IMG/VR virus record: IMGVR_UViG_3300042922_000826
Location: 1 to 42,274 of that record
Length of the DNA: 42,274 nucleotides
DNA from: a virus
Direction: 5' to 3' (one strand)
Numbering within the stretch: the first letter of the stretch is position 1; each line of letters starts with the position of its first letter. The translations under genes and the position numbers were made by a program. Below the pieces are notes generated by a model. It had not been told where the DNA came from. It saw only the letters and a list, made by a program, of their open reading frames with translations, and did not search any database. Shown here in pieces: positions 12,149 through 42,274 of the stretch.

Positions 12149-12163
12149 GTTCTTCGGGCCTCC

Positions 12164-12511: not shown

Positions 12512-12514
12512 GTG

Positions 12515-16483: not shown

Positions 16484-16494
16484 GGCGCCCTCCC

Positions 16495-19220: not shown

Positions 19221-19244
19221 TTCGCGCCCCTTTCGGCCAACATG

Positions 19245-19278: not shown

Positions 19279-19305
19279 CACAAGGACCCCTTGGGGTAGG
19301 CCTAA

Positions 19306-19335
19306 ATCGTAACCCCTTTTGTGCAAATCGAACAA
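19306..19335 (-). promoter_or_regulatory. Candidate late promoter
   Basis: Minus strand: -35 TTGTTC at 19330-19335, an 18-bp spacer, and -10 TACGAT at 19306-19311. The -35 overlaps the SOS-like motif at 19327-19342. A 12-bp palindrome ACCCC-TT-GGGGT lies close to the expected start of transcription. Confidence 0.5.
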
Positions 19336-19342
19336 GGGTTCT
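19327..19342 (-). promoter_or_regulatory. SOS-box-like operator AGAAC-N3-TGTTCGAT
   Basis: Minus strand AGAACCCTTGTTCGAT. The core GAAC-N4-GTTC matches the LexA box type of Gram-positive and several other phyla. It shares 13 of 13 fixed positions with the site at 35974-35989. Confidence 0.6.
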
Positions 19343-19351
19343 AAATAATTC

Positions 19352-19675: not shown

Positions 19676-19746
19676 AAAACCTCCCCTATTTCGTTTCCGG
19701 TTTGGTAAGATCCTGAGGGCGGGCAGGCAGCCTGGATGGAGCAGCG

Positions 19747-20187
19747 ATGACGACAACTGAATCGATTCAACTAATCACTGCGATCGGCCTGGGCGGCTTC
19801 ATCAGTACTCTCGTGAACTTGTACTTCAATACGTCGAACGCACGTAAAGACCGCGAGTTCGACGAGAAGAAGGCCGCATACAGTGCGTTTCTCGATGCTT
19901 ATCAAGCTATCGAGTACAAGGGCTTCACTGAAGTCAAAGAGCCATCCATGCGATTCCGGGCACTCCTAAACGCTACCGATCGCATCGTCTTGGTCAGCTC
20001 ACCGCAGATCGTGAAGGATGCGGTAGCCGTTGTTAAACTTGTCCACAGCGCCTTTGACCCCGACTTAGATGATGCGGCCAGGGATGAGCTCGACGGAAAC
20101 CTCGGAGCCGCCTACAACACCCTCCGAAACGCAATGCGTCAGGATCTAAACATCAATACTGAGCCGCTCGAGTTGAAGGCGCGCTGA
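19747..20187 (+). CDS. Membrane-anchored moron protein
   Basis: 146 aa on the plus strand inside a minus-strand region. An N-terminal hydrophobic segment (ITAIGLGGFISTLVNLYF) is followed by a charged stretch ARKDREFDEKKAAY and a helical cytoplasmic-type domain. Codon use is visibly less GC-rich than the flanking genes. It has its own ribosome site (GGAG) and an AT-richer upstream region, and its 3' end overlaps the convergent RecU-type gene by 35 bases. Such isolated, differently composed genes are often lysogenic conversion or superinfection exclusion genes, but the function is unknown. Confidence 0.75.
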   Translation: MTTTESIQLITAIGLGGFISTLVNLYFNTSNARKDREFDEKKAAYSAFLDAYQAIEYKGFTEVKEPSMRFRALLNATDRIVLVSSPQIVKDAVAVVKLVHSAFDPDLDDAARDELDGNLGAAYNTLRNAMRQDLNINTEPLELKAR

Positions 20188-20731
20188 GCTTCTCCGTCAT
20201 CCCGGCGATCGCCGCCACTAGGTCGAGCCCGCCGCGGTCCTTCACCACCGCCGCGCAGCTCTGCTTGAACACCTCGAGGGGGATGGACGGCGCCGCCTTG
20301 CCGCCCAGGTAGCGCGCCCGGTCGGCCTGCTCCCAGTACGGGGCCAGCACGGGCCAGGTGAGCGCGAAGTAGCGCGCCCCGTCCGGCAGATCGGAGAACT
20401 CGACGAGCAGGAAGGCGATCGCCCCGCGCTCGTGCGCCTCGCGTAGCCGCCGCGCCTGGTGGGGCTTCACCGTGCGCTTGGGGTCGACGGGGAACGACTT
20501 ACCCTTGGTGCTCTTGGCGTCGAAGGTGACGCGCCGGCCCCAGAAGTCGCCCGAGAAGTCGAGCCCGCCCTTGGCGACCAGGCGCCCTCGGGCCCGGCCC
20601 TGGCCGTCGACGGTGCCGGCGAAGCGGGGCGAGCCCTGCTCGATGTCGAGGCCCTCGGCCTGGTAGTCCTTAGCTCGCCGCCTTACGAGCGCTTCGAGCG
20701 CCGCGCCGGTGCTTTTCGTCTTGGCTGCCAT
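20153..20731 (-). CDS. RecU-like Holliday junction resolvase
   Basis: 192 aa from the ATG at 20731. The pattern GLDFSGDFWGRRVTFDAKSTKGKSFPVD, followed by KPHQARRLREAHERGAIAFLLVEF, matches the RecU fold: the D...F.AK residues are the nuclease metal site (PD-(D/E)xK type). It probably resolves recombination or replication intermediates before packaging. The gene overlaps the upstream gene by 62 bases. Confidence 0.82.
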   Translation of the reverse strand: MAAKTKSTGAALEALVRRRAKDYQAEGLDIEQGSPRFAGTVDGQGRARGRLVAKGGLDFSGDFWGRRVTFDAKSTKGKSFPVDPKRTVKPHQARRLREAHERGAIAFLLVEFSDLPDGARYFALTWPVLAPYWEQADRARYLGGKAAPSIPLEVFKQSCAAVVKDRGGLDLVAAIAGMTEKLSAPSTRAAQY

Positions 20732-21125
20732 GTTGCTCTTCCTCCTCCGCCCAGCTGGCGGCGATCGCCCCCTTGTAAACGTCACCTGGTCGCGCCGTCT
20801 CCCAGAAGTCCGCCGGCAGGCCCAGGTGCTTCGGCGCCGGCATCCAAACGCGGCCGCAATGGCTGTAGCTGTCCCACATCGGCCCGCTCGGGAGCACGAT
20901 GACCTTGCAGGTCGGGCACACGCAGGCGGTCGTGCGCGGCAAACGCCGGATGCTGGTGCCCGCCGAGATGAGCTCGAGCAGGGCAACCATCAGCTGGCCG
21001 CCCAGCTGCTCCCACTCGTCGTCGCTCAGCGCCTCGGGGTTCTTGGTGAGCGGCAGCCCGGCGCGCAGGGCACCCACGGCAGCCGTTTGCTGCAGGCGCA
21101 AGTGGTCTTTCATCGGTTCGGTCAC
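20670..21125 (-). CDS. Hypothetical protein with Cys motif upstream of RecU
   Basis: 151 aa from a GTG at 21125 with GGAGG eight bases upstream. It has helical N- and C-terminal parts and a CVCPTCK segment (about residues 68-74) followed by a later Cys, possibly a zinc site. The 3' end overlaps the resolvase gene. The tail is very charged (EEEEQHGSQDEKHRRGARSARK). No family is recognised. Confidence 0.65.
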   Translation of the reverse strand: MTEPMKDHLRLQQTAAVGALRAGLPLTKNPEALSDDEWEQLGGQLMVALLELISAGTSIRRLPRTTACVCPTCKVIVLPSGPMWDSYSHCGRVWMPAPKHLGLPADFWETARPGDVYKGAIAASWAEEEEQHGSQDEKHRRGARSARKAAS

Positions 21126-21161
21126 TTCGCTTTACCTCCTGATGGCAAGTTGTGCGTCGAA

Positions 21162-21201
21162 TCACATCCAAGCCTAGCGGTAAGTGCTGGTCTTGGATGT
21201 G
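21162..21201. repeat. Inverted repeat in intergenic gap
   Basis: Ten-base arms CACATCCAAG and CTTGGATGTG separated by about 18 bases, in the 159-bp gap before the gene at 21125. A hairpin or operator is possible. No T-tract follows. Confidence 0.5.
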
Positions 21202-21284
21202 TCACGCTTCATCTCATCGGCCTGTAATGCCCGTCATCACTGGGCTACAGAGTATTATTCGTCCGTAAAACTTGGATCGCAGCG

Positions 21285-21659
21285 CTAACCGCCCTCCCGG
21301 GTCGCCTTCTTGCGGCGCAGGAACGCCCGCGCCTCCGTCTCGGTCACCGTCCGCAGCCGGCGGTACTGGGTGATGTTGCCGGCTTCGTCCCGGGCGGCGA
21401 CTTCCACCAGCACGAGGGCCTGCTCGGCCTGGTCGTGCACGGCGGCGCGGGTGAGCTGCGCGAGCTCGCGTTCATTCGTGGTCATGCGGTTGTTCCTCCG
21501 GAAGATGCATGCGACCTGGTAGGCAGCCATGCCGGTCTTGAGAACCTGCCAAGGGGTGGCAGCGTCGCCAGCCTGGTAAAGGCCAAAGACAGCGCAGATG
21601 AAGATGGCGACCTTGGCGATCGCCGCGGTGAGCGGGCGAGGGAAGTTGGTAGAGGCCAT
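21285..21659 (-). CDS. Hypothetical protein with internal start
   Basis: 124 aa from the ATG at 21659. The N-terminal part has one membrane-type segment (VAIFICAVFGLYQAG). A second ATG at 21485, with a better ribosome site (GGAGG at nine bases), would give only the soluble C-terminal half: MTTNERELAQ... ending in RRKKATREGG. Either a fused product or two proteins from one frame are possible. Function unknown. Confidence 0.55.
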   Translation of the reverse strand: MASTNFPRPLTAAIAKVAIFICAVFGLYQAGDAATPWQVLKTGMAAYQVACIFRRNNRMTTNERELAQLTRAAVHDQAEQALVLVEVAARDEAGNITQYRRLRTVTETEARAFLRRKKATREGG

Positions 21660-21798
21660 GGGGTTCGGGTCCTTTGCTCGGGTCGAGCGTGAGCGGCTCA
21701 CTGGCCGCTCAACAGTTCTAACCTGAGCATATTGGTGAAAAGTGGGACGATCCGAGTGGACCCAGAATGTTAAGCACCCTTAACCTGTGCGCTTGATC

Positions 21799-22071
21799 CT
21801 ACTTCCTATCCGGGGCGCGCTCGCCCATCAAGCCCGACAAGCGCCAGACCCGCGTGAACAACACGGCCGAGTCTGGCCGCTCCGATTCATCGGTCAACCA
21901 CTCCCGCACGGCCTGGCGCAGTTCGCGCAGTTGCGCAACCTCGGCCAGCAATTCAGGAAACTGCCAACTCTCAAGCACGCCCAGCACGACCGCCCCGCCG
22001 CCATCAGGGCGGGTCTCGACCAGTTTTTGTAACGAGGCCAACCGGGCCTTGGATGACTCAACGTCAACCAT
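21799..22071 (-). CDS. Hypothetical early protein
   Basis: 90 aa; GAGGT precedes the ATG. Helical, with two Leu-rich stretches (LASLQKLVETR, ELLAEVAQLRELRQAV). It is the last of a run of small early genes before a 139-bp gap. No family recognised. Confidence 0.55.
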   Translation of the reverse strand: MVDVESSKARLASLQKLVETRPDGGGAVVLGVLESWQFPELLAEVAQLRELRQAVREWLTDESERPDSAVLFTRVWRLSGLMGERAPDRK

Positions 22072-22084
22072 CGGATACCTCTAC

Positions 22085-22318
22085 CTATCGGGAGTCGCGG
22101 ATGCCGGCGGCAACCGCCTTGCGAATGTCGTCGGCCTCGGGCTGGGCCATATAGATTTGGTCGATCTTGTCGAGGATGCGCCAGAGCACCCGAGCGATGT
22201 GCAAGAGCTGCCAGCACACCACCCACCGGGGGTCGCCAGCGCCCTGGAATCGCTCAATCCAGTAGACCGGCTGCTCTGTCGCCTGTTGGCGTTCTTCCGC
22301 CTCGGTAATCGCGGCCAC
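22085..22318 (-). CDS. Hypothetical early protein (GTG start)
   Basis: 77 aa starting at a GTG after GGAGG. It has a Trp-rich centre (DPRWVVCWQLLHIARVLWRIL) that could be a membrane-associated or packing helix. No known family. Part of a run of short minus-strand genes. Confidence 0.5.
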   Translation of the reverse strand: MAAITEAEERQQATEQPVYWIERFQGAGDPRWVVCWQLLHIARVLWRILDKIDQIYMAQPEADDIRKAVAAGIRDSR

Positions 22319-22342
22319 GGGGGCCTCCTTTCTGCTTGCTTC

Positions 22343-22633
22343 TCAACCGAGAGGCTCTGGACTACCAGCAATCCGGCAGCGGCTGGTCGCTGAACCGGGT
22401 CGTGCGCGTCGGGACGTCGGGGCGATCGCCGCCCAGGCTCGCGCGTCCCCCGCCGGGTGGGGTTCCTCGACCTCGAGGCCGTAGCTGCCGCCGAGAGCCA
22501 GCCCGTTGATGACGGGCAGCTCCGGCAGCGTGAGCAGCTGGGCCTGGGCCTGGTCGAGAGTCAGGCCCGTGGCGAGGGTCTCGGCGCCGCCGAGAAACGG
22601 GCGCCAAACGACGCGATATGTGGCCTCGGTCAT
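22343..22633 (-). CDS. Small protein with probable 3' frameshift
   Basis: 96 aa as read. The first 70 residues look normal; the last 26 do not. From about 22424 a -1 shift gives DVPTRTTRFSDQPLPDCW and a stop, with 17 of 18 codons ending in G or C, against 11 of 18 in the read frame. This indicates a one-base loss in a C run or a shift site, next to a GCGATCGC octamer (22422-22429). Function unknown; its start overlaps the end of the upstream gene. Confidence 0.55.
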   Translation of the reverse strand: MTEATYRVVWRPFLGGAETLATGLTLDQAQAQLLTLPELPVINGLALGGSYGLEVEEPHPAGDARAWAAIAPTSRRARPGSATSRCRIAGSPEPLG

Positions 22634-22836
22634 TGCTGGCCCTCTTCCTGCGGCGATCGCTCCTGCTGTTTCTTGTGCGAGGCGATGAGCTGCTCAGCAA
22701 GCGCCGAGGCCTCTTCAATCTGGGCGATCGGCACCCAGAGAACGGCGAACGCGGGCTTGTCGTCCAGGGCCATAGTCCCGAAGCTCGGGCCGCCGTCATT
22801 GAGAATCTGCGCCATCTTGGCGACGTCGATGTTCAT
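22630..22836 (-). CDS. Hypothetical early protein
   Basis: 68 aa, MNIDVAKMAQILND..., with PAFAVLWVPIAQIEEASALAEQL and a basic/acidic tail. Ends four bases inside the next gene (ATGA). A GCGATCGC octamer lies directly before its start. No family recognised. Confidence 0.6.
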   Translation of the reverse strand: MNIDVAKMAQILNDGGPSFGTMALDDKPAFAVLWVPIAQIEEASALAEQLIASHKKQQERSPQEEGQQ

Positions 22837-22848
22837 GGCGATCGCCCC

Positions 22849-23118
22849 CTACTTCCGGTTCCGCTTGCGCGCCGCGCGGGAGGCCTTGGCCTTGGCCTTG
22901 TCGCGCGCCTGCATGCCGACCTTGGTGTAGCCCGAGCGGGTCTTGTGGCCGCCGTAGTACTTGGCCTCTTCGCGCCGCTTCAGCTCGGCGACATCGAGCG
23001 TCTCGGTGCGAACGACCAGGCCGTCAGGGATGCTCTCGTCGATGTGGATCGGCCCCTGCGCCTGGAGCGGCGCGATCAGACCCAAGGTCGCCATCTGGGC
23101 GTAGGTGTTGCTGTTCAT
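22849..23118 (-). CDS. Basic hypothetical early protein
   Basis: 89 aa. The C-terminal third is very basic (MQARDKAKAKASRAARKRN...), suggesting nucleic-acid binding. The middle contains YYGGHKTRSGYTKVG. It is divergent to the small plus-strand gene at 23278, with the 159-bp gap between carrying likely promoters. Function unknown. Confidence 0.6.
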   Translation of the reverse strand: MNSNTYAQMATLGLIAPLQAQGPIHIDESIPDGLVVRTETLDVAELKRREEAKYYGGHKTRSGYTKVGMQARDKAKAKASRAARKRNRK

Positions 23119-23277
23119 GGTGTACTCGCTTTCTGCCCGTCGTGCGGGCGGTTGGGCTTGCGGCGATCGCCGCGCTATTCACGTACCGTTCAGAGAAGCA
23201 CGCGGTTCAGTCTTAGCCCCGGTTTAAGACAGGTAGCGCCGGGCCGGGGCTATATCGGGGCCAAGGAGGGACCGCCC

Positions 23278-23487
23278 ATGCCTCAGCCCATTCTTTCCAT
23301 CACGACCATCCAAGACGGCGATCGCCAGGTGCTCTGGGGCTCGCTGCTTCTCGAACTGGAGGCCGCCGTTAGCGCAGTGATCACCGCGCGGCGCGACCAG
23401 CTGACCGACGCCGGGCTGTACCTGGCCGCCCACGAATTGCGGCTCGAGCTGAGCGACGTGCTGCTCGACGGTGCCGAGGGAGGGTAA
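23278..23487 (+). CDS. Small plus-strand moron-like protein
   Basis: 69 aa, starting with MPQPILSITTIQDGDRQVLW, with a Leu/Glu/Ala-rich helix and acidic end. AAGGAGGG sits six bases before the ATG, a strong ribosome site. It is alone on the plus strand between minus-strand early genes, so it has its own promoter, probably in 23180-23260, where GTCTTA and TAAGAC form a small inverted repeat. Function unknown. Confidence 0.65.
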   Translation: MPQPILSITTIQDGDRQVLWGSLLLELEAAVSAVITARRDQLTDAGLYLAAHELRLELSDVLLDGAEGG

Positions 23488-23504
23488 GGCAGGCGATCGC
23501 CGCG

Positions 23505-24536
23505 CTACGCTCCGCCTGCCATCAAGCCGTCGAATAATCCCGGCCGCAGGCGCAGGCAGTGCGGGCTGAACCAGATACGCTCGCGCTTGCGGTTGTCCTT
23601 GCGCCCCGTGTTTCCGAAGCTGGCGTAGCCGCCCACGGATTCCCACGCGTAAACGTCCCAGCCCAGGTCCTCGAGCTCGTTGTGCTCGCCGTCGTAACCG
23701 CATAGGGCGATGCGGAACATCGGGTCGTTGCCGTGGGCGATCGCCCAGGCTCGCACGGCATGCGCCACGTCGCCGTCCTCAACGTTGTACGTGGTCATGT
23801 TCCGGCCGGTCTCCCTCGAGTAAGGCGGGTCGAGAAGTACTCCCGTCCGCCCGACCTGCGTCGTGCCGCACGGCTTGAGTACTCGGGTCCAATCGCCACA
23901 GCAAACGCGCACTCGACGAAGGCGATCGCACAGGTCGAGCATGTACAGTTCAAGGTCAGACAGCCCATGACGATGCACGCCGCGACCGCCGCGGCACAGC
24001 TGGGGGCGCTTGCTGTGCACGCCCATGGGGTGGGCGTTGGGCACCTGGTTGTAGACGGCTCGCCGATGAACGCCCTTGCCCGGCGCCAGGTCCGGCAGCT
24101 TGCGCTGCTTGGCGCGCTGGTCCGTGCACCACTCGCCACCGATCCACATCGAGAGCCCCCACACCCACCAGCCGGCGATCCGGGCGTCGTAGTACTCGGG
24201 GTCTTCGCGGCAGAGGTCGACCAGCGGGCGCCCCTTCTCCACGAGCCAGAGGTGCCGAGCCTTAAGGTCCACCTCGTTCACAGGCCAGTCAGCGTAGTGG
24301 GCCACGGCTTCCGGGTCGGCCTGGACGGCGCGCCAGAAGTTCGCCAGGTAGGCGTCAAGGTCGTTCACCGTCTCGATGCGCGGCGCCGTCGGCCGGCCGA
24401 GCAGCACAGCGAGCGATCCGGCGAAGGGCTCGACGTAGTTCGGCACGTCGCCGAAGCGCTCCCAGACTACATCGGCCACCCGGCTCTTCCCCCCGAACCA
24501 GGGGAACGGAGCTTTCAGCGTCGCCGGGCTGCTCAT
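23505..24536 (-). CDS. D12-class DNA adenine N6-methyltransferase
   Basis: 343 aa from the ATG at 24536, overlapping the upstream stop (ATGA). The N-terminal motif FPWFGGKSRVADVVW is the SAM-binding FxGxK motif of the D12 class (Dam, DpnM, T4 Dam); the next expected motif, PNYVEPFAGSLAVLLGR, is present, and the catalytic DPPY is in VLLDPPYSRETG. The target base is adenine; the target sequence cannot be read from the protein. GATC is typical for the class, and this genome is very rich in GCGATCGC, which contains GATC. It likely protects phage DNA or marks it for regulation. Confidence 0.92.
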   Translation of the reverse strand: MSSPATLKAPFPWFGGKSRVADVVWERFGDVPNYVEPFAGSLAVLLGRPTAPRIETVNDLDAYLANFWRAVQADPEAVAHYADWPVNEVDLKARHLWLVEKGRPLVDLCREDPEYYDARIAGWWVWGLSMWIGGEWCTDQRAKQRKLPDLAPGKGVHRRAVYNQVPNAHPMGVHSKRPQLCRGGRGVHRHGLSDLELYMLDLCDRLRRVRVCCGDWTRVLKPCGTTQVGRTGVLLDPPYSRETGRNMTTYNVEDGDVAHAVRAWAIAHGNDPMFRIALCGYDGEHNELEDLGWDVYAWESVGGYASFGNTGRKDNRKRERIWFSPHCLRLRPGLFDGLMAGGA

Positions 24537-24850
24537 GCGCGCTCCCCCGACGTGTGCTCCTTGCGCCGCTTGGCGTACCACTCGATGTCGTAGCACTTCT
24601 TGCACATGCCCCGGGCGTAGAGGGGCCGGCCGAGGGGACAGGGGCAGGTCCCGACCTGGCTGCCGCTAGGGCTGATAGGCCGGGCAGGCACCGCGCCGGG
24701 CACCAGCGAGTAACGCTTGCCGGTGAGCACGGCGCGGGTATGGTGGTCGCTCAGCCCGTAACGGGCGGCGATCGAGGTGGGGTTCTCGCCGGCACGCCGG
24801 GCGGTACGCATCTCGATCACCTGGGCGACGGATAGTTTCGCTTGGGACAT
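24533..24850 (-). CDS. HTH and zinc-finger protein
   Basis: 105 aa from the ATG at 24850 (GAGG six bases upstream). The N-terminal part SVAQVIEMRTARRAGENPTS-IAARYGLSDHHTRAVLTG is a helix-turn-helix of the type found next to phage HNH proteins. The C-terminal Cys residues (CPCPLGRPLYARGMCKKC) may bind zinc. It overlaps the methylase start and may be its partner or regulator. Confidence 0.7.
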   Translation of the reverse strand: MSQAKLSVAQVIEMRTARRAGENPTSIAARYGLSDHHTRAVLTGKRYSLVPGAVPARPISPSGSQVGTCPCPLGRPLYARGMCKKCYDIEWYAKRRKEHTSGERA

Positions 24851-24972
24851 TTGGGGCCTCACTTTCGAGATAACAGCAATTATCAGGCGTCCCGCAATCC
24901 GGCTCAGGGAGCCGACGACGGGCGCATCTATTAGGTTTCCAGGTTTGTTTATCCGGCGACGGATCGCGCGCC

Positions 24973-25008
24973 CCCGAATCGCCCTGGTTTTCTTCCAGAT
25001 AATTCGGG
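24973..25008. repeat. Imperfect hairpin in 163-bp intergenic gap
   Basis: Arms CCCGAAT and ATTCGGG with an inner CCTGG/CCAG pair around a TTTTCTT loop, downstream of the gene ending at 25014 and before the HTH gene. It may be a weak terminator or a protein-binding hairpin. Confidence 0.5.
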
Positions 25009-25013
25009 GCGGG

Positions 25014-25148
25014 TCACTTCGCCGTGTACGATTTGGCGAACTTGGTGTCGAGCACGCCGGCCGGCGTCTGGGCCCGCTCGACGTGGGCCTGGCAGTAGTC
25101 GCCCTCGCCCCGGAACTTCCGGAAGCAGAACCGGCAGCTCGAGGTCAC
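25014..25148 (-). CDS. Small Cys-rich zinc-finger-like protein
   Basis: 44 aa from a GTG that overlaps the upstream stop (GTGA). It carries SCRFCFRKF (C-x2-C) and later YCQAHVERA, a possible C-C-C-H zinc site. The same frame is open upstream through 25826, so it could be the tail of a longer ORF; the GTG start coupled to the 85-aa gene seems more likely. Confidence 0.5.
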   Translation of the reverse strand: MTSSCRFCFRKFRGEGDYCQAHVERAQTPAGVLDTKFAKSYTAK

Positions 25149-25826
25149 GCGCGCCGGGCGATCGCCGGGGCCATGGTCATCAGCTCTCCGATGCGGTGCA
25201 TCACCAGCAATTTTTCGCGCCGGTACTCTTGCATCATCCGAAGGTCTTGGTAACGCCACGGCAGGTAGTCCAGGTCGGGGTAGCGGCGGAGGACCGACCG
25301 GCACAGCCCGCCGTTGTCGTTGCAGACCTGCGCCGTCACCGTCCGCACGCCCTTGCGCGCCAACGGGCCGTGGCACACGACGCACATACACTCGATCACC
25401 ATCGAAACTGACCTCCCGCCCATTTGCCCTGGGCGCATATCCTGGCTTGGGCCCGCGTTTGCCGACCTCCGCACCTTCCCGGCGGCGCTTCTCGGCCATT
25501 CCCTCGCGCGCCTGGCGCCGATGCTCCTCGAGGGCCGCCGGGTCGGCCTTCACCTTGACGTGGTACTCGCCCCGCCGGCGATCGCGGGCGTAGGCCTGCC
25601 GGTGGCACGTCGGGCACCGGTCGGGTCGCTTCGGGTGCGGCTGCATCGCCTTCCCGCAATCCATGCAGGTCGTCTGGGGCTCGGCGGCGATCGCCGCGCT
25701 TCCCTCGCGGCCGGCCTGGAGGATGGCCTCCCAGACGTAGGGCACCGACTCGGTCGGGATGCGCGCTTGCTCCAGGAGCACGCCGAGGATGCGCAGCGCG
25801 CCGCTCGACGAGAACCGTTCCGCCAT
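25014..25826 (-). CDS. Zinc-ribbon protein; frame runs on after a probable frameshift
   Basis: The ATG at 25826 opens a 270-aa frame. Residues 1-135 look real: C54-x2-C57...C71-x2-C74 (TCMDCGKA, RCPTCHRQA) make a zinc ribbon, followed by a basic region and KRGPKPGYAP. After that the read frame is Pro/Arg/Gly-rich and overlaps a better 85-aa gene. A -1 shift near 25435 gives APQGKWAGGQFRW and a stop at 25396, overlapping the next start. So the gene is probably about 143 aa with a one-base loss, and the downstream part is an open but non-coding frame. Confidence 0.5.
   Translation of the reverse strand: MAERFSSSGALRILGVLLEQARIPTESVPYVWEAILQAGREGSAAIAAEPQTTCMDCGKAMQPHPKRPDRCPTCHRQAYARDRRRGEYHVKVKADPAALEEHRRQAREGMAEKRRREGAEVGKRGPKPGYAPRANGREVSFDGDRVYVRRVPRPVGAQGRADGDGAGLQRQRRAVPVGPPPLPRPGLPAVALPRPSDDARVPARKIAGDAPHRRADDHGPGDRPARVTSSCRFCFRKFRGEGDYCQAHVERAQTPAGVLDTKFAKSYTAK
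25145..25402 (-). CDS. Small Cys-rich protein
   Basis: 85 aa from the ATG at 25402. It begins MVIECMCVVCHGPLARKG, with CMCVVC and, later, CNDNGGLC, a zinc-finger pattern. It has high GC at third positions in its own frame, so it is the real coding frame here rather than the long overlapping frame. GGGAGGT lies upstream of the ATG. Confidence 0.65.
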   Translation of the reverse strand: MVIECMCVVCHGPLARKGVRTVTAQVCNDNGGLCRSVLRRYPDLDYLPWRYQDLRMMQEYRREKLLVMHRIGELMTMAPAIARRA

Positions 25827-25828
25827 GC

Positions 25829-26416
25829 TCAACCTCCCTTCTGCGCACGCCAGTACGCGGACCAATAGGGCGACGGCCGCACCGGGTTCGGCGTCGGAGC
25901 TGGGCGCTGATACCGCGCCGTCTGCTCGGCCACCCAAGCCGGCGTCACCGTCTCGGGCTCGTTCATCGCCCAGCCGGCGAGCCGCTCGTATTCCCGCCGG
26001 AGCGACTCGGGGTGCTGCGTCTCGGTCTTCTCTTGACCGTTGACCTTGGTCACCACCTTCACCCCGCCGTGCTTCCACGCCGCGGCGATCGCCTCCAGCA
26101 CCGGCGCGATCGCCGGCGGGAAGGCCTTCCGGCAGTCTTTCCAATGCTCTGCCGGGTTGGAAACCCGCTTGGTGTCTCGGTGCCACGGCGCGGAGTCGGC
26201 GGGTAAACTTTTGTCACCCGCACCCGGCCGGCTGCCGCCCAGGCTTAGCGCTTCAAGAGCCGCGATGAACGCCTCCCGGTTCGCCGCCACCAGAGCCCGC
26301 TTTTCGTCTGTGTACGCCCCCGGGTCCGCCTTGAACTTGAGCTTCCCGTCGGCGGCGAGGTAGAGCACCACCCCGCCGCGCGCCAGGTCGTTCAGCATCT
26401 CGAGGGCGGTGCTCAT
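25829..26416 (-). CDS. TubC_N-like protein partnered with the primase
   Basis: 195 aa. The first 60 residues have the TubC N-terminal docking-domain pattern: MLNDLARGGVVLYLAADGKLKFKADPGAYTDEKRALVAANREAFIAAL. In phages this domain is often fused or adjacent to replication primases, where it probably mediates protein contact. The C-terminal part (LRREYERLAGWAMNEPETV) is helical. ATGA overlap with the prim-pol gene argues for coordinated expression. Confidence 0.7.
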   Translation of the reverse strand: MSTALEMLNDLARGGVVLYLAADGKLKFKADPGAYTDEKRALVAANREAFIAALEALSLGGSRPGAGDKSLPADSAPWHRDTKRVSNPAEHWKDCRKAFPPAIAPVLEAIAAAWKHGGVKVVTKVNGQEKTETQHPESLRREYERLAGWAMNEPETVTPAWVAEQTARYQRPAPTPNPVRPSPYWSAYWRAQKGG

Positions 26417-33287: not shown

Positions 33288-33539
33288 CTATGAAGAAGCG
33301 AACTTCCCGCCTTCGCGGGCCACCAGGGCGATCGCCCGCCGTCCCAGCCGTTTCAGATGCCCCTCTTGCTCGAGGCGCTGAATGTGCCTGGTTGCCGTGA
33401 AACTGGACTTGAAGCCGAGGGCGGTACCGACGTCTCGCACGGAGGGCACGACATTCCGGGTTTGGATTTGCTCGGTGATGTAGGCCAGGACGGCCGCGCG
33501 GTTCTTCGCGCCGAGCTCGCGCTTCGGGTTGCGCTTCAT
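33288..33539 (-). CDS. LexA-type winged-helix protein lacking the protease domain
   Basis: 83 aa from the ATG at 33539, overlapping the upstream stop (ATGA). The segment AVLAYITEQIQTRNVVPSVRDVGTALGFKSSFTATRHIQRLEQEGHLKR follows the LexA N-terminal winged helix (L..I......G.pPS.reI....Gf.S......hl..Le..G.i.r). There is no C-terminal self-cleavage domain; the protein ends after REGGKFASS. It could bind GAAC-N4-GTTC boxes of this phage constitutively. The binding target is inferred. Confidence 0.72.
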   Translation of the reverse strand: MKRNPKRELGAKNRAAVLAYITEQIQTRNVVPSVRDVGTALGFKSSFTATRHIQRLEQEGHLKRLGRRAIALVAREGGKFASS

Positions 33540-33902: not shown

Positions 33903-34127
33903 CTAAACCGCCTCGCTTACACTATCGTGTAAATTGTTGTCAAAAAAAATGGAGGGTGGGACGCCGAGCGCCTTCGCGATCTTCTCGAGGTTCCTCGTTG
34001 TAGGGTTACCACGAGGACCCAAGATATTAGAAATCGCAGACGTCGCCAGGCCAGTCCTTGCCGACAATTCAGCGATGGTCACCTTCCGGCGAGCCATCTC
34101 GGCTCGGATAGAAGAGGGCTGGAACAT
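33903..34127 (-). CDS. Cro-like XRE repressor
   Basis: 74 aa (a GTG three codons upstream is possible). The HTH runs through RRKVTIAELSARTGLATSAISNILG, followed by the typical NPTTRNLEKIAKALGVPPSIFF of XRE proteins. It is the first minus-strand gene, facing the plus-strand repressor across a block of operators, which is the layout of a Cro gene. Its own 3' end contains one operator copy (33917-33932). Confidence 0.85.
   Translation of the reverse strand: MFQPSSIRAEMARRKVTIAELSARTGLATSAISNILGPRGNPTTRNLEKIAKALGVPPSIFFDNNLHDSVSEAV
33917..33932. promoter_or_regulatory. Immunity operator O1 inside the Cro-like gene
   Basis: TTACACTATCGTGTAA, a near-perfect palindrome of the TTACAC-N4-GTGTAA type, in the last codons of the Cro-like gene. 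Confidence 0.6.
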
Positions 34128-34148
34128 TCCTGTCACCGTCCTTTCGTC

Positions 34149-34240
34149 TTACACAATAGTATAAAAGACCTTCCCTGTCAACACTATTGTGTAAATTTCT
34201 TACACCACACTGTAAGAGCGCGTTGCTACTATAGTGTAGA
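34149..34240. promoter_or_regulatory. Immunity operator block (four sites)
   Basis: Related palindromes at 34149-34164 (TTACACAATAGTATAA), 34179-34194 (CAACACTATTGTGTAA), 34200-34215 (TTACACCACACTGTAA) and 34225-34240 (GCTACTATAGTGTAGA), spaced 30, 21 and 25 bp apart. They lie between the divergent repressor genes, as in lambda-like switches. Confidence 0.7.
34153..34181 (-). promoter_or_regulatory. Early lytic promoter for the Cro-like gene
   Basis: Minus strand: TTGACA (34176-34181), 17-bp spacer, TATTGT (34153-34158). The -10 lies in the operator at 34149-34164 and the -35 next to that at 34179-34194, so repressor binding would block it. Confidence 0.7.
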
Positions 34241-34267
34241 AAGGTTGCTTGCTGAGAGGTGCTGTAC

Positions 34268-34759
34268 GTGGTTGAGAGCCTGGGCGAATTTGCTTCCCGT
34301 AAGAGGGGCGCTCGCTCGCGCCAAGATGTATGTGACCAGGCGAAGAGAAAGGGCTATGACATCAGTCAGGCCTATATCCAGAAGATCGAGACAGGAGAAA
34401 CCAAGAGCCCCTCGCTGGATAAGCTCGACGCGCTGGCCGCCGGCCTAGGGGTCGATCCTGATTACCTGGTGGCCCTGGCGCGCGGGAAAGACCCTGAGGC
34501 TGTCGCGCCTGAATCTGGGTCAGCACTCGCCTACCTTGATGAGCTCGCCGACCTCGCTCACCCTCCCTCGCTCGAAGAGCGCCGCATCATCAAGGAGGCA
34601 GAATCGTTGAGCCTCTTCATCGGCATGTTCACCGAGCCTGGCTTCTGGTCGATGGCACCCGAGACCCGCCGCCGCTTTTTCCGAGACGTAGAGGGCGCCA
34701 TCGACGAGGCGCGCGACATGTACCGCCGCATGGGCAAGGAGCTGCCGAATGGATCTTGA
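34268..34759 (+). CDS. CI-like XRE repressor
   Basis: 163 aa from the GTG at 34268 (GAGAGG eight bases upstream); an earlier GTG at 34259 is in frame but less well placed. The N-terminal HTH is RKRGARSRQDVCDQAKRKGYDISQAYIQKIETGETKSPSLDKLDALAAGLGVDPDYL. The C-terminal part is acidic/helical, with no LexA-type peptidase residues. Downstream genes on the same strand are the lysogeny functions, so it is probably the prophage repressor. Because it lacks a cleavage domain, its removal may depend on a partner such as the ImmA-like product that follows. Confidence 0.8.
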   Translation: MVESLGEFASRKRGARSRQDVCDQAKRKGYDISQAYIQKIETGETKSPSLDKLDALAAGLGVDPDYLVALARGKDPEAVAPESGSALAYLDELADLAHPPSLEERRIIKEAESLSLFIGMFTEPGFWSMAPETRRRFFRDVEGAIDEARDMYRRMGKELPNGS

Positions 34760-35228
34760 TGAGATCTTCGCGCCCGAGGTGGAGCGGTACAGTATCACCA
34801 TCCTCGACCGCCAGCCGATCGCCAACGCCTCGTTCGTGTACGCCTATCCGTGGGGCGAGTTCCGGCTCAAGATTCGGGGCGACCTTTATGGTCCGGCCCG
34901 CCTCGAGGCCGCGGCCGTCCAGGTGGGGCGCATCGCCCTGGGGCACGACTTCAAGCGCTCCGGATGGAAAGACGAGCGCCGGAATCGCCGGGAGTGGCTG
35001 GAAGCGCAGCAATGGGCGGCCCGTCGACTGATACCGTGGCGGATGCTGAGTTGGGCCTTCCGTGAGCAGTGGGAGCCGTGGGAGTTGGCCGAGACCGCCG
35101 GTGTGACCGAGTGGCTGGCTTGGCTCGCGTGGAAGGACTGGAAGGAGAAACGAGGTGGCCTCGTGACGCTTCCGCCCCGAGTGAACGCGCCGGCCTGGGC
35201 CGAACCGCAGGACTCGCTTTTTTTGTAG
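34749..35228 (+). CDS. ImmA/IrrE-like protein that lost its zinc site
   Basis: 159 aa, overlapping the repressor by 11 bases. The region VQVGRIALGHDF matches the HELGHIALGHD zinc-protease segment, but H-E-x-G-H has become V-Q-V-G-R (about residues 57-61). The following helix with AQQWAARRLIPWRML corresponds to the EREANxFAaeLLmP segment, and ELAETAGVTEWLAWLAW to the usual C-terminal helix. So it has the fold pattern but no HExxH. ImmA normally cleaves the repressor encoded next to it; here it probably acts as a non-catalytic partner. Assignment is by pattern, not by search. Confidence 0.55.
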   Translation: MDLDEIFAPEVERYSITILDRQPIANASFVYAYPWGEFRLKIRGDLYGPARLEAAAVQVGRIALGHDFKRSGWKDERRNRREWLEAQQWAARRLIPWRMLSWAFREQWEPWELAETAGVTEWLAWLAWKDWKEKRGGLVTLPPRVNAPAWAEPQDSLFL

Positions 35229-35259: not shown

Positions 35260-35925
35260 ATGTTCAAGCAAACACTCCTCGGGCTGGTTGCCGGCGCGAT
35301 GCTTCTGGCGTCGTCGGGTTGCTATGTGGCTTCGACCCACTACGACATGGGTTTGGCCGAGGTCGAGCGTCCGGCGAAGGCTAAGCAGCGCTTCGGCGAG
35401 CAGAAGATTGTCCGCGGCGAGGAAGGGGGCGTTCAGAAGTACTTCTTCGAGGATGAGATGGTCAAGATCGCCTGGGTTCCAGGCACAGAGGGAATTTCGT
35501 TCGCTCTCCATAACAAGACCAAGCACTCGATCAAGCTCCTCTGGAATGAAGCGGTGTTCATCGATCCTCAGGGCACGAGCCACAGGGTCATGCACAACGG
35601 TGTGAAGTTCAATGACCGCAACGGCGACCAACCCGCCACCGTCATTCCCCGACTTGGTAACATCAGCGATAACATTGTATCCGTCGACCAGGTTCGCCTT
35701 GCCGGCGAGGCTGGTTGGATAACAGATGACTTCCTGCCTACGCCGATTGCGTTCAGCGAGGTTCAGGCCGAGGAGTTCGCGGCCCAGGTCACTCCGTACA
35801 TCGGCAAAACGTTCCAGGTGCTCCTGCCCCTCCAGATTGAGGATGTGACGAACGAATACATCTTCTCCTTCAAAATCTTGGATGCTCATATTCGCCCCAA
35901 GGTGAAGGCGCAGCGCGCTCAGTAA
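35260..35925 (+). CDS. Probable lipoprotein, lysogenic conversion candidate
   Basis: 221 aa. The N-terminus MFKQTLLGLVAGAMLLASSGC is a signal peptide with a lipobox-like end (SSGC), the Cys at residue 21. The mature part is beta-rich (ISFALHNKTKHSIKLLWNEAVFIDP) with no known domain. Codon use is less GC-rich than the phage average. It is in the lysogeny block and is followed by a terminator. Such phage lipoproteins often exclude other phages or alter the envelope. The host membrane location is inferred. Confidence 0.75.
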   Translation: MFKQTLLGLVAGAMLLASSGCYVASTHYDMGLAEVERPAKAKQRFGEQKIVRGEEGGVQKYFFEDEMVKIAWVPGTEGISFALHNKTKHSIKLLWNEAVFIDPQGTSHRVMHNGVKFNDRNGDQPATVIPRLGNISDNIVSVDQVRLAGEAGWITDDFLPTPIAFSEVQAEEFAAQVTPYIGKTFQVLLPLQIEDVTNEYIFSFKILDAHIRPKVKAQRAQ

Positions 35926-36154: not shown

Positions 36155-36483
36155 TCGCCCCGAAGGCGAAAGTGGTCCCGTTCCTTCGCAAGCTCCTGGC
36201 CGACGGCGAGGCCCTGGCGGCCCAGCGCCCCGCGACGCTGGAAGAGTGCTACGCCCTGAGCGAGGCGGGCACCCAGTGGGTGAACTGGGCCGGCAAGGTG
36301 CTGCGGCGCGCCTTTGATGAACAGCCCTTCTGGCTCCACATGTTCCACAACCCGAAGGACATGCCAGGCTGGCCGGACGGGCCGATTACCCTCGAATTCA
36401 TGGAGACCTACCGCCAGGCCAGTTGGCGGCACAAATTGGAGTTGATGCGGCAAGCGATCGCCGCTGCGGAGGCAAGCCAATGA
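36139..36483 (+). CDS. Hypothetical protein in integrase operon
   Basis: 114 aa. It has PFLRKLLADGEALAAQRPATLEECYALSEAG, then WVNWAGKVLRRAFDEQPFWLHMFHN. It starts inside the upstream gene and its TGA overlaps the integrase ATG (ATGA), so the three genes are likely co-translated. No family recognised. Might modulate integration, by context only. Confidence 0.6.
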   Translation: MRPSLIAPKAKVVPFLRKLLADGEALAAQRPATLEECYALSEAGTQWVNWAGKVLRRAFDEQPFWLHMFHNPKDMPGWPDGPITLEFMETYRQASWRHKLELMRQAIAAAEASQ

Positions 36484-38084
36484 CCGAGCCGAAACGCGCC
36501 GTCGCCTATCTGCGGGTCTCTACCGGCATGCAGGAGCGCGACGGCGTCTCCCTCGAGGCCCAGCTCGACATGGCCCGGCGCTTCTGTGAGTACCGGGGCC
36601 TCGAGATGGTAGGCACCTACACCGACGTGATGAGCGGCAGCGACGATCGCCGGCCGGAGCTGGCGAAGCTTGAGGCGGACCTCGCGCGCAAGGCCTTCGA
36701 CGCTGTGCTCGTCTACAAGGTCGACCGTCTCAGCCGCGACTCGGCCCACTACCATGCCCTGCTGCAGCGCTTCGCCCAGCACGACGTGCGCCTAGCGTCG
36801 CTCACCCAGGACATCGACGCGACCACCAGCTTCGGGAAGTTCGTCATGTCGGTGCTGATCGCCGCGGCCGAGATGGAGGCCGGCCAGACCGGCGATCGCG
36901 TGCGCGACTCCTACCGGCAGCGCGCCGAGATGGGGCGCCCCCTGATGGGCGGCCCGGCGACGATCGGCTACAGGTACGTCCGCCGGCACATCAACGAGGC
37001 GGGCGAGCGCGTGCCCGGCCGCCTCGAGGTCGACGTCACCCGCGCGGCCATGGTGCGCTGGATCTTCGACCGCTTCATCGAGACCCACAACATCTACCAA
37101 GTCGTGGTCGAGGCCGCGGCGCTCGGCTACACCATGCCGTCGGGCCGGCCCTTCAACCGCCAGGGCGTCTACCGCATCTTGCGAAACCCCATCTACCGGG
37201 GCGAGTATGTCGCGCTCAAGACGCGCACCGAGCGAGTCGGGGGCAAGAAGCGCATCGTCAAGCTACCTCGCGACCAGTGGTTCCGGGGCGAGCGCACCAT
37301 GCCGGCTATCGTCGAGGACGAGACTTGGGAGCGCGCGCAGGTGCTCCTGGACGAGAATGCCAAGGAAGCACCCCGCAGGGTGGCCGCGCGCGGCCGCAAC
37401 GCCTGGACCGGCCTGCTGAGGTGCGCCGGCTGCGGCAGCACCCTCGTGCGCGACTCTAGCCCCGGGAACGTCGGCAAGAAGGGCGTGAGGCTCTACAGCT
37501 ACATCTGCCACCGGCCGCGCGCCTACGGCCACGACAGCTGCCCCGCGATCGCCCGCGTGTCAGAGGCCTTCCTCGACAAGCGAGCCTGGCCGGCGATCGC
37601 CGCCGCGCTTGACCCCATCGTCACCGCCAAGCGCTCGACCGCCAGCCGGAAGCCGGGCCGGCCGGTGCGCGCGCGCAACGTCGACCAGGAGCTCGCGGCG
37701 CTGCGCGCGAAGCTCGCCCGGGTGCAGGCGGCGTTTGAAGATGGCGACTACGGCGAGGACCTCGCCACGGCCCGGCGCATCAAGCGCGAGAAGCAGGCCG
37801 AGATCAAGGCCGCGATGGAGGCCATCCAGGCGGCCAGCAAGGGGCCCGTCGGGGCGCCCGAACCGCCCAGGGTTGCCGGAGGCCTCATGGCCTACTGGGA
37901 GCGATTGGAGAGCGAGCCCGGCGCCAGGGGGCAGATGCTCCGGGAGCTGGTGCACGGCATCGAGGTCCGCAAGGGTTTCATCCGGGTAAAATTCGCCGAG
38001 ACCAACCACCCCGACTGGCCCGACGAGATCGAGCTACCGATCACGGTGATGAATTCTCGACATGCTCGAAACCGTGATCTATAG
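36480..38084 (+). CDS. int: Large serine integrase
   Basis: 534 aa from the ATG at 36480. Resolvase domain about 1-145: AVAYLRVSTGMQERDGVSLEAQ with the catalytic Ser14 and DRLSRDSAHY. It is followed by a recombinase domain (IFDRFIETHNIYQVV, RILRNPIYRGEYV), a zinc ribbon near 315-350 (RCAGCGSTL...YICHRPRAYGHDSCPA) and a C-terminal coiled coil (ELAALRAKLARVQAAFEDGDY). It would integrate phage DNA at attB without host cofactors; reversal needs a directionality factor. It is in an operon with the SOS-like motif, which could tie excision or integration to DNA damage. A candidate attP lies downstream. Confidence 0.93.
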   Translation: MTEPKRAVAYLRVSTGMQERDGVSLEAQLDMARRFCEYRGLEMVGTYTDVMSGSDDRRPELAKLEADLARKAFDAVLVYKVDRLSRDSAHYHALLQRFAQHDVRLASLTQDIDATTSFGKFVMSVLIAAAEMEAGQTGDRVRDSYRQRAEMGRPLMGGPATIGYRYVRRHINEAGERVPGRLEVDVTRAAMVRWIFDRFIETHNIYQVVVEAAALGYTMPSGRPFNRQGVYRILRNPIYRGEYVALKTRTERVGGKKRIVKLPRDQWFRGERTMPAIVEDETWERAQVLLDENAKEAPRRVAARGRNAWTGLLRCAGCGSTLVRDSSPGNVGKKGVRLYSYICHRPRAYGHDSCPAIARVSEAFLDKRAWPAIAAALDPIVTAKRSTASRKPGRPVRARNVDQELAALRAKLARVQAAFEDGDYGEDLATARRIKREKQAEIKAAMEAIQAASKGPVGAPEPPRVAGGLMAYWERLESEPGARGQMLRELVHGIEVRKGFIRVKFAETNHPDWPDEIELPITVMNSRHARNRDL

Positions 38085-38287: not shown

Positions 38288-38467
38288 ATGACAGGCAAAC
38301 AGCTGGTCAAGCTTCTAGAGTCGAATGGCTGGACACTAGACCGCATCAAAGGCAGTCACCACATCCTCAAGAAAGGAGGGGCAGCAATCTCAGTCCCGGT
38401 TCACGGAAACACAGACCTCAAGAAGGGCACCGAGGCCGCCATCTTGAAACAAGCCGGCCTCAAGTGA
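38288..38467 (+). CDS. hicA: HicA-type toxin
   Basis: 59 aa: MTGKQLVKLLESNGWTLDRIKGSHHILKKG..., a short dsRBD-like mRNA interferase of the HicA family with the key His in GSHHIL. The ATG is only seven bases after the -10, and no ribosome site precedes it, so the mRNA would be leaderless or nearly so. It is the toxin partner of the HTH-bearing HicB protein 65 bp downstream. It lies inside the accessory cassette and is probably used to maintain the prophage or block competing phages. Confidence 0.88.
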   Translation: MTGKQLVKLLESNGWTLDRIKGSHHILKKGGAAISVPVHGNTDLKKGTEAAILKQAGLK

Positions 38468-38473
38468 ACCGAG

Positions 38474-38491
38474 GGCCCCCGAGAGGGGGCC
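38474..38491 (+). other. GC-rich hairpin between hicA and hicB
   Basis: GGCCCCC-GAGA-GGGGGCC stem-loop seven bases after the hicA stop. There is no T-tract, so it is not a canonical terminator. It may modulate the hicA/hicB ratio. Confidence 0.6.
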
Positions 38492-38532
38492 TACTCCCCT
38501 GTGATTGCGCCCCATAGCTAAAGGAGAGCCCC

Positions 38533-38961
38533 ATGCAGCACTTCGCCTACCCCATCCGTTTCGAGCCCGCCGACGAGGGCGGTTACTGCGTGCAGGGCCT
38601 GCCGCCCATGGAGGGCGTCATCAGCGACGGCGAGACCCTCGACGAGGCCAAGGACATGGCCAAGGACGCCCTCACCGGCGTGCTGGCCACCCTGCTCGAC
38701 CACAACTTGCCCATCCCCCGGCCGGTGCCCGCCGAGGGCCCTGACGTATACGCCATCAGCCCGGACTCGCATGTGGCGATCGCCGTCCTGCTGCGCTGGG
38801 CGCGCGAGGATGCCGGCCTCACCCAGGGGGAGGTCGCGCAACGCCTCGGCATCAAGCAGCCCTCGTATCAGCGCCTCGAGAAGCCGGATGCGAACCCGTC
38901 GATCCAGACGATCGCCCGCGCCTTCAAGGCGATCGGCCGGGAGCTCCACCTCGCGATCTGA
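38533..38961 (+). CDS. hicB: HicB-type antitoxin with HTH
   Basis: 142 aa. The N-terminal half has the HicB fold pattern (FAYPIRFEPADEGGYCVQGLPPMEGVISDGETLDEA). The C-terminal half is an XRE HTH (LLRWAREDAGLTQGEVAQRLGIKQPSYQRLEKPD). AGGAG precedes the ATG. It should neutralise HicA and repress the operon through the twin palindromes upstream. Confidence 0.9.
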   Translation: MQHFAYPIRFEPADEGGYCVQGLPPMEGVISDGETLDEAKDMAKDALTGVLATLLDHNLPIPRPVPAEGPDVYAISPDSHVAIAVLLRWAREDAGLTQGEVAQRLGIKQPSYQRLEKPDANPSIQTIARAFKAIGRELHLAI

Positions 38962-39069: not shown

Positions 39070-39711
39070 TTGAGTACGAAGCTGATTCGCAACACCAGTG
39101 ACATCAACAGCGAGCTGGCCCGACTTGGGGTGCCCGCTGAAGTTCTAAAGGATGCGGCCCTCGCCTGGCTCAACGGAGCAAGCAAATTTGGCTCGCTGGT
39201 TCCTGCACAGGTGCCGGGGATCGCGGCTTGGGGTGAAGCGGTCGGAACTTTGCGCGAGCTTCTCTGCCAGCGCGGATGGGTGTCGTCTGAGTCGCGCGGC
39301 GGCTTGGCTACGGTCACCAACCCTGAGAACAACATCTCCATCGGGGTGGTTCGTGGCGACGAGAACACTGGCTTGTCGGGCAATGCAATGTCGTTGCGCC
39401 GCCGTGGCCCGGCCACGGTCGCAGTTGTCGAGCAGAACATCGAGCAGTTGAGCCTGTTTGCCGGTAAAGACTTCGGTGTCCGCCCCGCTGTCAAAGACGG
39501 GACGACCTGGGTTCTCCTCCTGCATCGGACCGAGTCCGAGCTGCGCTACGAGCTTTCCTTGCCCACCAAAATCGGCCAGGATGGGCGCATCGTGGACTTC
39601 AAGGTGCGCCTTCAGTTCGATGCCATTCCCCTGCACACCCCGGTTATCGTCGACCCCATGGCAGATGCGCCTACGGTGGACATCACGATCCTTCGAAAGG
39701 CGTCCGAATAG
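39070..39711 (+). CDS. Unknown protein paired with XRE-ImmA
   Basis: 213 aa from a TTG with AGAGAGG seven to nine bases upstream. It starts MSTKLIRNTSDINSELARLGVPAEVLKDAALAWLNGAS. The middle carries NPENNISIGVVRGDENTGLSG and RRRGPATVAVVEQNIEQLSLF, then a beta-rich end IVDFKVRLQFDAIPLHT. No signal, membrane segment or catalytic motif is recognised. The gene is followed nine bases later by the XRE-ImmA gene, also TTG-started, and forms a two-gene unit closed by a terminator. By analogy with other XRE-ImmA pairs, it could be the toxin, sensor or effector. That is inference. Confidence 0.75.
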   Translation: MSTKLIRNTSDINSELARLGVPAEVLKDAALAWLNGASKFGSLVPAQVPGIAAWGEAVGTLRELLCQRGWVSSESRGGLATVTNPENNISIGVVRGDENTGLSGNAMSLRRRGPATVAVVEQNIEQLSLFAGKDFGVRPAVKDGTTWVLLLHRTESELRYELSLPTKIGQDGRIVDFKVRLQFDAIPLHTPVIVDPMADAPTVDITILRKASE

Positions 39712-39720
39712 GAGCGACCA

Positions 39721-40818
39721 TTGGCTTTCAACCCCTCCCGCTTGACTCTCGCGCGAAAACGACGCGGGATGACAAAGAAGTCCCTGGCGGAAGCACTGGG
39801 TGTCACTGACCGCAGCGTCACCGCCTTTGAGGCCGGAGAGTTTCCTCCCAGTGAGGCGAATCTTCCCGTGCTGGCAAAGGTCCTTGGCTTCCCCGAATCC
39901 TTTTTCTTCCAAGAAGACCTCGAAGAACTTAGGGCAGAAAGCGTGAGCTTTCGAGCCCTGAGTTCGATGACCGCCGGAAAGCGCGACGCTGCTCTCAGCG
40001 CTGGTGCATTCGCAGTTGCTCTCAACACCTACCTGGAGTCTAAGTTCGCCCTTCCTGGTGCAAACGTGCCTGATTATAGGGGGCACGATCCTGAGGCGGC
40101 CGCGATGGCGCTGCGTGCCCACTGGTCGCTCGGCGAGTTGCCTATCAAGAACGTAATTCACTTACTGGAGGCCCAGGGTATCAGGGTCTTTTCCCTGGTG
40201 GAAGAGTGCCACGATGTGGATGCCTATTCGCTTTGGAAGGACGGCACGCCGTTCATTTTCTTGAACACGATGAAGAGTGCTGAGCGCAGCCGATTTGACG
40301 CCGCGCACGAACTCGGGCATCTGGTGCTTCATCGCCATGGCCAGCCTGCTGGCAAGGAACCGGAAAGAGAAGCTGATGCTTTCGCCTCAGCCTTTCTAAT
40401 GCCGAGGGGGAGCATCTTGGCGCACCCCATCGCCTACCCAACGCTCAGCAATTTGGTCGTTGCAAAGCGAAGCTGGGGGGTCTCAGTGGCTGCGCTCACG
40501 TATCGTCTGAAGCAGCTGAATCAGATCTCCGAATGGACCTACCGCACCCTCTTCAAGGAAATCTCAATGAAGGGATGGCGTAAGTCCGAACCCAATGAGG
40601 GGCCACGGGAATCATCCCTCTTGCTTGCTAAAGTTCTGGCAGCACTCAAGGAAGAAGGCGTCTCAAAGCAGGACCTCGCCCGCCATCTTCACTTGCGCCT
40701 CGCAGATTTGGAGAAGTTCGTTTTCGGGTTAGTGATGGTCGCCGTCCCGGGTGGCCGAATCGAAGAAGAGAAGCAGGCTACAGGGAAGGCACCACGCCCT
40801 GATTGGAAGGTGCTGTAG
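39721..40818 (+). CDS. XRE-ImmA fusion regulator/protease
   Basis: 365 aa from a TTG after AGGAG. The N-terminal HTH is ARKRRGMTKKSLAEALGVTDRSVTAFEAGEFPPSEANLPVLAKVLGFP. The C-terminal half is an intact ImmA/IrrE zinc peptidase: H196-E197-L-G-H200 in DAAHELGHLVLHRH, with the further ligand in EREADAFASAFLMP. Proteins of this type sense a signal, often DNA damage, and cleave a partner repressor. Its likely partner is the 213-aa protein. It differs from the main prophage ImmA-like protein, which lacks the HExxH. Confidence 0.85.
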   Translation: MAFNPSRLTLARKRRGMTKKSLAEALGVTDRSVTAFEAGEFPPSEANLPVLAKVLGFPESFFFQEDLEELRAESVSFRALSSMTAGKRDAALSAGAFAVALNTYLESKFALPGANVPDYRGHDPEAAAMALRAHWSLGELPIKNVIHLLEAQGIRVFSLVEECHDVDAYSLWKDGTPFIFLNTMKSAERSRFDAAHELGHLVLHRHGQPAGKEPEREADAFASAFLMPRGSILAHPIAYPTLSNLVVAKRSWGVSVAALTYRLKQLNQISEWTYRTLFKEISMKGWRKSEPNEGPRESSLLLAKVLAALKEEGVSKQDLARHLHLRLADLEKFVFGLVMVAVPGGRIEEEKQATGKAPRPDWKVL

Positions 40819-41933: not shown

Positions 41934-42217
41934 ACCAGCTTTCTCCCTTGTGCAATGGCGATCGCGATGTAGGTGACGAGCGCGGTGCCGAGGCCTGCCG
42001 CCCACTTGATGACGGCCTCCAGCAGCTTTAGGCGCCGCTCGTGGTCCTTGACGGTGTCCTTGAGGCCGTTGTCGCCCTCGATCGTGTGGTGGATGGCGTC
42101 AACCTGGCGGCCGATGCGCTGCACCTGCAGGTAGAGCGCCTGCGCGTAGGGCGGCCAGGCCGAAAGGTCTTGTGGGACGATGCGCTCGAGCGCGTCGAGC
42201 TCGTCGGTGTTGTGCAT
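41930..42217 (-). CDS. XhlA-like lysis accessory protein
   Basis: 95 aa. A coiled-coil (IHHTIEGDNGLKDTVKDHERRLKLLEAVIKW) is followed by one transmembrane segment (AGLGTALVTYIAIAIA) and a basic tip. This is the layout of haemolysin XhlA-type lysis proteins, which help the endolysin reach the wall. The gene crosses the terminal repeat. It is the first gene of the lysis cassette. Confidence 0.72.
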   Translation of the reverse strand: MHNTDELDALERIVPQDLSAWPPYAQALYLQVQRIGRQVDAIHHTIEGDNGLKDTVKDHERRLKLLEAVIKWAAGLGTALVTYIAIAIAQGRKLV

Positions 42218-42274
42218 GCGCCCCCCCTTACAGGCTGTAGCCGGGCGAGTAAGGCGCCCAGGTGTTGTTGATGC
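42148..42274. repeat. Right copy of 127-bp terminal direct repeat
   Basis: Exact copy of bases 1-127. Removing one copy joins the XhlA-like gene (41930-42217) to the metalloprotease gene at the left end, restoring a continuous minus-strand late operon. Confidence 0.97.

Follow-up and report, generated by a model that had tools for sequence, protein, structure and literature searches.

Directly behind the repressor gene of a temperate siphovirus-like phage lies the gene for a diverged, protease-dead homologue of ImmA, in a standard lysogeny module. The phage is known from an IMG/VR virus record of 42,274 bases with 66% G+C, analysed over its whole length and referred to here as the window. Its terminal 127 bases are identical (1-127 and 42148-42274), which points to a complete genome, circular or circularly permuted, of about 42.1 kb. 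Terminase, portal and tape-measure genes were recognised by sequence on the minus strand. A late gene on the same strand (81-986) encodes an HExxH-like motif, LSHEMGHALHQ, in a product without a Pfam match. The nearest relative of the genome (L002, a terminase relative) is 88% identical to it in DNA sequence along the longest piece; it matches window positions 6505-26061 only and stops short of the immunity region. The module is made up of the following features:

33903-34136, minus strand: Cro-like HTH protein, divergent from the repressor (HTH_3, E = 3.2e-9).
33917-33932: operator-like palindrome TTACACTATCGTGTAA, at the 3' end of cro.
34149-34164: operator-like palindrome TTACACAATAGTATAA, over the -10 of the leftward promoter.
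34179-34194: operator-like palindrome CAACACTATTGTGTAA, overlapping the -35 of the leftward promoter.
34200-34215: operator-like palindrome TTACACCACACTGTAA, from the palindrome count.
34259-34759, plus strand: XRE/CI-like repressor, 166 aa (HTH_3, E = 1.4e-8), with no peptidase domain and no AAH motif.
34736-34741, plus strand: AAGGAG, ribosome-binding site of the ImmA-like gene by sequence, inside the end of the repressor gene and seven bases before the start.
34749-35228, plus strand: ImmA-like protein, 159 aa, catalytic residues lost (phrog_87, hhalign, family HMM and codon usage).
35260-35925, plus strand: lipoprotein gene, with a signal peptide and a lipobox-like SSGC, between the ImmA-like gene and the integrase.
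36474-38084, plus strand: large serine integrase (Resolvase, E = 2e-32; Recombinase, E = 3e-20).

The reading frame at 34749-35228 was confirmed as real, encoding 159 aa on the plus strand directly 3' of the XRE repressor gene. It starts within the last codons of that gene, with an overlap of 11 bp. An open frame alone means little at 66% G+C, as an antisense frame of 327 aa that overlaps the gene is also open. Codon usage favours the gene's own frame in both halves (log-odds of 0.335 and 0.169 per codon), the five alternative frames having lower log-odds, and the G+C content by codon position resembles that of the neighbouring genes. With codon usage, positional G+C and translational coupling kept, the frame looks functional as a gene. 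Its translation lacks HExxH, as originally predicted; a frameshift concealing the motif was ruled out from the translations of the other two frames over the motif region, which have no HExxH.

The proposal that the protein is an ImmA relative was borne out by three profile comparisons. It matches the phrog_87 "metallo-protease" profile with E = 8.7e-7 (residues 65-136 on profile positions 94-169). A family HMM, built from 90 unique canonical relatives from named phages, one plasmid and IMG/VR, gives it 22.7 bits, where the maximum of 5000 shuffles is 4.5 bits and the reversed sequence is not reported. Alignment to the family with hhalign gives E = 5.6e-7 over residues 64-141; by tblastn, a Paenibacillus homologue shares 33% identity over the same residues (E = 0.02, weak on its own). 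Common to the protein and its relatives are G65-H66, G72 and NRxxxLxA..WA..LIP, and the surviving C-terminal helical half, ELAETAGVTEWLAWLAWKDW, is an HTH-like element in the family. Searches of Pfam, NCBIfam, PADLOC and PDB sequences gave no match for the protein. For PF06114 (ImmA/IrrE peptidase M78) this extends to E <= 5, while the canonical relatives L131, L018 and L024, used as positive controls, match it with E = 6e-11 to 3e-6. The pattern surrounding the motif, said by the original prediction to be kept, is kept C-terminal of about residue 64 and not elsewhere. On these comparisons, the protein is best classified as a remote ImmA relative.

The active site is altered at the following positions:

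34917-34931, plus strand: V57-Q58-V59-G60-R61, the alternative motif register (translation, and AlphaFold helix spacing against a canonical model).
34932-34946, plus strand: I62-A63-L64-G65-H66, where sequence methods place EExGH/HExGH; the His remains, but the first ligand and the catalytic Glu do not.
34995-34997, plus strand: Trp83 instead of the third metal-ligand Glu (in KQE), from the alignment to the 90 relatives.

In the relatives the motif reads E-E-x-(G/A/M)-H, with both Glu and His invariant in 90 of 90 unique sequences, as is the third metal-ligand Glu. The 37 unique frames found by patterns outside the motif (C-terminal patterns) all have EExxH. In Listeria MpaR, the motif EELMH is required, and the H54A mutant abolishes cleavage and induction (PMC6872733). 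The motif His aligns to H66 in 61 of the 62 pairwise alignments covering the motif, and the phrog_87 match begins at G65. An AlphaFold model of the protein, built from an alignment of ImmA relatives, reached a medium pLDDT of 69.7, against 95.5 for a canonical relative by the same procedure. In the target model, of low confidence here, a helix spans 49-63 and the next begins at 76; in the canonical control a helix spans 43-59, with H56, and the next begins at 70. By the helix spacing of this low-confidence model, register 57-61 would be slightly better supported than 62-66. The statement that H-E-x-G-H is replaced by V-Q-V-G-R therefore stands in that the usual motif is lost, but the relatives have E-E-x-G-H rather than H-E-x-G-H, and the register it implied agrees with the helix spacing but not with the sequence methods, which choose H66. 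Since residues 54-66 contain neither Glu nor Asp, and the whole protein has one His and no Cys, no register restores an active site, and the protein is predicted to be catalytically dead in any of them. That it is a dead ImmA homologue is highly probable. A faster divergence of the catalytic half, apparent at first, was not significant against members unselected by the N-terminal pattern (z = -1.8).

The repressor would be 163 aa long if translated from the second GTG (34268), which is preceded by GAGAGG. It has one HTH and no peptidase domain was found, which supports the predicted arrangement of a catalytically dead ImmA beside a repressor without a cleavage domain of its own. MpaR cleaves the phi10403S repressor between the A and H of TIAAH (PMC6872733), and an xAAH motif is present in the reading frame directly upstream of 81 of the 90 relatives, the remainder including some wrongly picked frames. 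A profile search of the present repressor for the AAH tail gave no reportable match (shuffles reach 5.5 bits). The tripeptide LAH at residues 98-100, considered as an AAH remnant, is isolated, is not matched by the tail profile and may be coincidence. With the ImmA-like protein dead and the repressor without AAH, both halves of the cleavage circuit appear to be gone, and the loss of cutter and cut site is consistent with a switch that has given up cleavage by ImmA. A search for relatives of the repressor returned none. A match of the repressor to capH (PADLOC, E = 3e-8) was judged to be driven mainly by the HTH, because the ImmA-like protein has no CapP-like match.

The genes are ordered Cro, divergent CI/XRE repressor, ImmA-like protein, lipoprotein and integrase. 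The succession of repressor and ImmA-like gene is common to the nine compared phages, and the switch layout is similar in phages Diane, A118, YPHTV-1 and phiEf11. Palindromes of the form TTACACNATNGTGTAA occur at four sites in or beside the intergenic region, compared with 0.07 expected by chance in the whole window. The sole promoter-like site is leftward (34181-34153), its hexamers being overlapped by two of the four palindromes. Downstream of cro, a minus-strand gene (33288-33539) encodes a LexA DNA-binding domain (PF01726, E = 8.4e-10) but no peptidase domain; its product may compete for the SOS boxes of the host.

Three known systems invite comparison. MpaR of the Listeria monocin and gp35 of phage A118, of the EExxH type, also lie directly behind a CI-like repressor; they belong to the same family by phrog_87 and their C-terminal half is homologous to that of the ImmA-like protein, which unlike them has lost EE..H and the third-ligand Glu, next to a repressor without TIAAH. 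The ImmR/ImmA pair of ICEBs1 and the phi105-type switches likewise form a two-gene operon of repressor and ImmA, but their cleavage mechanism cannot operate here, as the ImmA-like protein has no HExxH. The lysogeny module of Streptococcus phage TP-J34 consists of int-ltp-ORF3 metallo-proteinase/rad-crh-cro (PMC3952083). The order of cro, repressor, ImmA-like protein, lipoprotein and integrase is the same, with operators in the divergent region; unlike TP-J34, the window phage has a serine integrase and its protease is dead. The lipoprotein (35260-35925) is the positional counterpart of TP-J34 ltp, although sequence similarity between the two was not found. Its family matches are weak (best phrog_26452, E = 0.008) and no relatives of it are known; it is a candidate for superinfection exclusion.

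Lytic growth in ordinary ImmA modules starts once the repressor has been cut by ImmA, in Listeria at an AAH site. In the present module the operon, the coupling and the C-terminal HTH-like half remain, but the repressor has lost its AAH site and the ImmA-like protein three of its four active-site residues; the simplest reading, likely but unproven, is that binding was kept and cutting lost. If the protein has any function, it would have to exert it by binding. The best explanation, which we favour tentatively, is that a diverged member of the ImmA family has lost proteolysis and been kept as a stoichiometric partner of the phage repressor, acting by binding it and so changing its binding to the operators. 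The ImmA-like protein could be an antirepressor, stripping the repressor from the DNA after a signal, or it could stabilise the repressor, as the original prediction suggested; we infer both the binding and the direction of its effect. As Koberg et al. reportedly described in 2015, Rad of TP-J34 forms a complex with the repressor Crh that prevents operator binding, which by analogy may serve as a precedent for action by binding. The stronger claim, that a pseudo-ImmA controls lysogeny purely by stoichiometric binding, as a non-cutting antirepressor or co-repressor, the cut site of the repressor having been lost simultaneously, is rather doubtful.

The main and serious rival of the partner reading, a real possibility if not a probable one, is that the gene is a relic. 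The ImmA gene and the cut site of the repressor would have lost their function when the switch passed to other control, for instance by an antirepressor or by low spontaneous induction, and the gene would now be drifting or be retained by its position in the operon. Consistent with such a remnant, three of the four catalytic residues are lost, PF06114 no longer matches, the C-terminal strands appear to be missing and the repressor has no AAH tail. The isolation of the dead form, which is shared by no relative found, fits as well: no close relatives of the protein were detected in IMG/VR, phages, plasmids or genome contigs, and none with the same catalytic loss in IMG/VR, the phage and plasmid collections, GTDB contigs or 783 sampled Pseudomonadota genomes. 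Two candidate relatives, L016 and L135, were rejected as antisense or in another frame. However, a drifting gene is at odds with the intact frame, with the codon usage of a functional gene in both halves, with the preserved ribosome-binding site and overlap, and with a C-terminal half that is still recognisable. On the partner reading the gene would be under selection. The dead form is known as a single sequence without close relatives, which weighs against that reading.

A second alternative is cleavage in trans, either by RmrA of the same genome or by an ImmA-type protease that the host or another prophage supplies; the ImmA-like protein would then be a bystander or an adaptor. The genes of the RmrT-RmrA pair are:

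39070-39711: RmrT (PADLOC, E = 2.2e-44), paired with RmrA.
39721-40818, plus strand: RmrA (PADLOC, E = 5.6e-152), with an HTH and a peptidase M78 domain with intact HELGH (PF06114, E = 4e-21).

Listeria phage phi10403S offers a parallel: lacking an ImmA of its own, it relies for induction on MpaR, which another element encodes; it does, however, retain TIAAH (PMC6872733). The window phage has no AAH site of the kind cut by MpaR, only the isolated LAH, which speaks against cleavage in trans by an ordinary ImmA. RmrA is the catalytically intact ImmA-domain protein of the genome and shares an ImmA/IrrE-type domain with the ImmA-like protein, but it differs in its intact HELGH, its fused HTH and its RmrT partner, and similarity between the two proteins was not detectable. 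RmrA, the protein to which the XRE-ImmA of the original prediction corresponds, more likely serves a separate defence module, as the antitoxin of a RosmerTA pair. Cleavage in trans is thus unlikely. The RosmerTA pair (39070-40818) is phage-borne and adjoins the lysis genes; a second toxin-antitoxin pair (38288-38961), between the integrase and RosmerTA, consists of HicA (PF07927, E = 3.6e-21) and HicB-HTH (phrog_497, E = 3e-21).

The protein might also not descend from ImmA at all, being of an HTH type with only the C-terminal helices in common. Significant similarity is confined to residues 64-141, and the N-terminal half, which aligns poorly, is weakly modelled (pLDDT 50-70); the confident helices run from about 76 to 135, residues 141-159 are disordered (pLDDT < 50) and the last strands of the fold appear to be missing. 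A fold search with the model also returned small HTH matches. The nine best PDB matches, on the other hand, are to the ImmA/IrrE family, namely PprI/IrrE and a Mycobacterium tuberculosis transcriptional regulator (6cyy, 6cz6, 6d2s and 6cyj), which we take to be RamB, with a probability of 1.00, TM scores of 0.50-0.57 and E >= 3e-3 throughout for a model of pLDDT 69.7 that came from an ImmA alignment. The structural similarity to ImmA that the original prediction called for was thereby seen, in a medium-confidence model; as the model depends on the ImmA alignment, the fold search supports an IrrE-like fold but is not independent proof of it. The gene also occupies the ImmA position of all compared phages, and the residues conserved in the family, from G65-H66 to the NRxxxLxA..WA..LIP pattern, are those of ImmA relatives, making an origin outside the family very unlikely.

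That the protein retains protease activity through an unusual metal site is barely credible: H66 is kept in the sequence-based register and E82 and E85 flank W83, but the residues for an HExxH/EExxH pair or a catalytic Glu are lacking, and H54A alone kills MpaR (PMC6872733).

The usual account of ImmA-type switches is proteolysis. A module that has lost both the enzyme and the cut site, and has kept the operon and the partner gene, would allow what ImmA does by binding to be told apart from what it does by cutting. With a natural mutant of this kind, whether induction needs cleavage would become directly testable.
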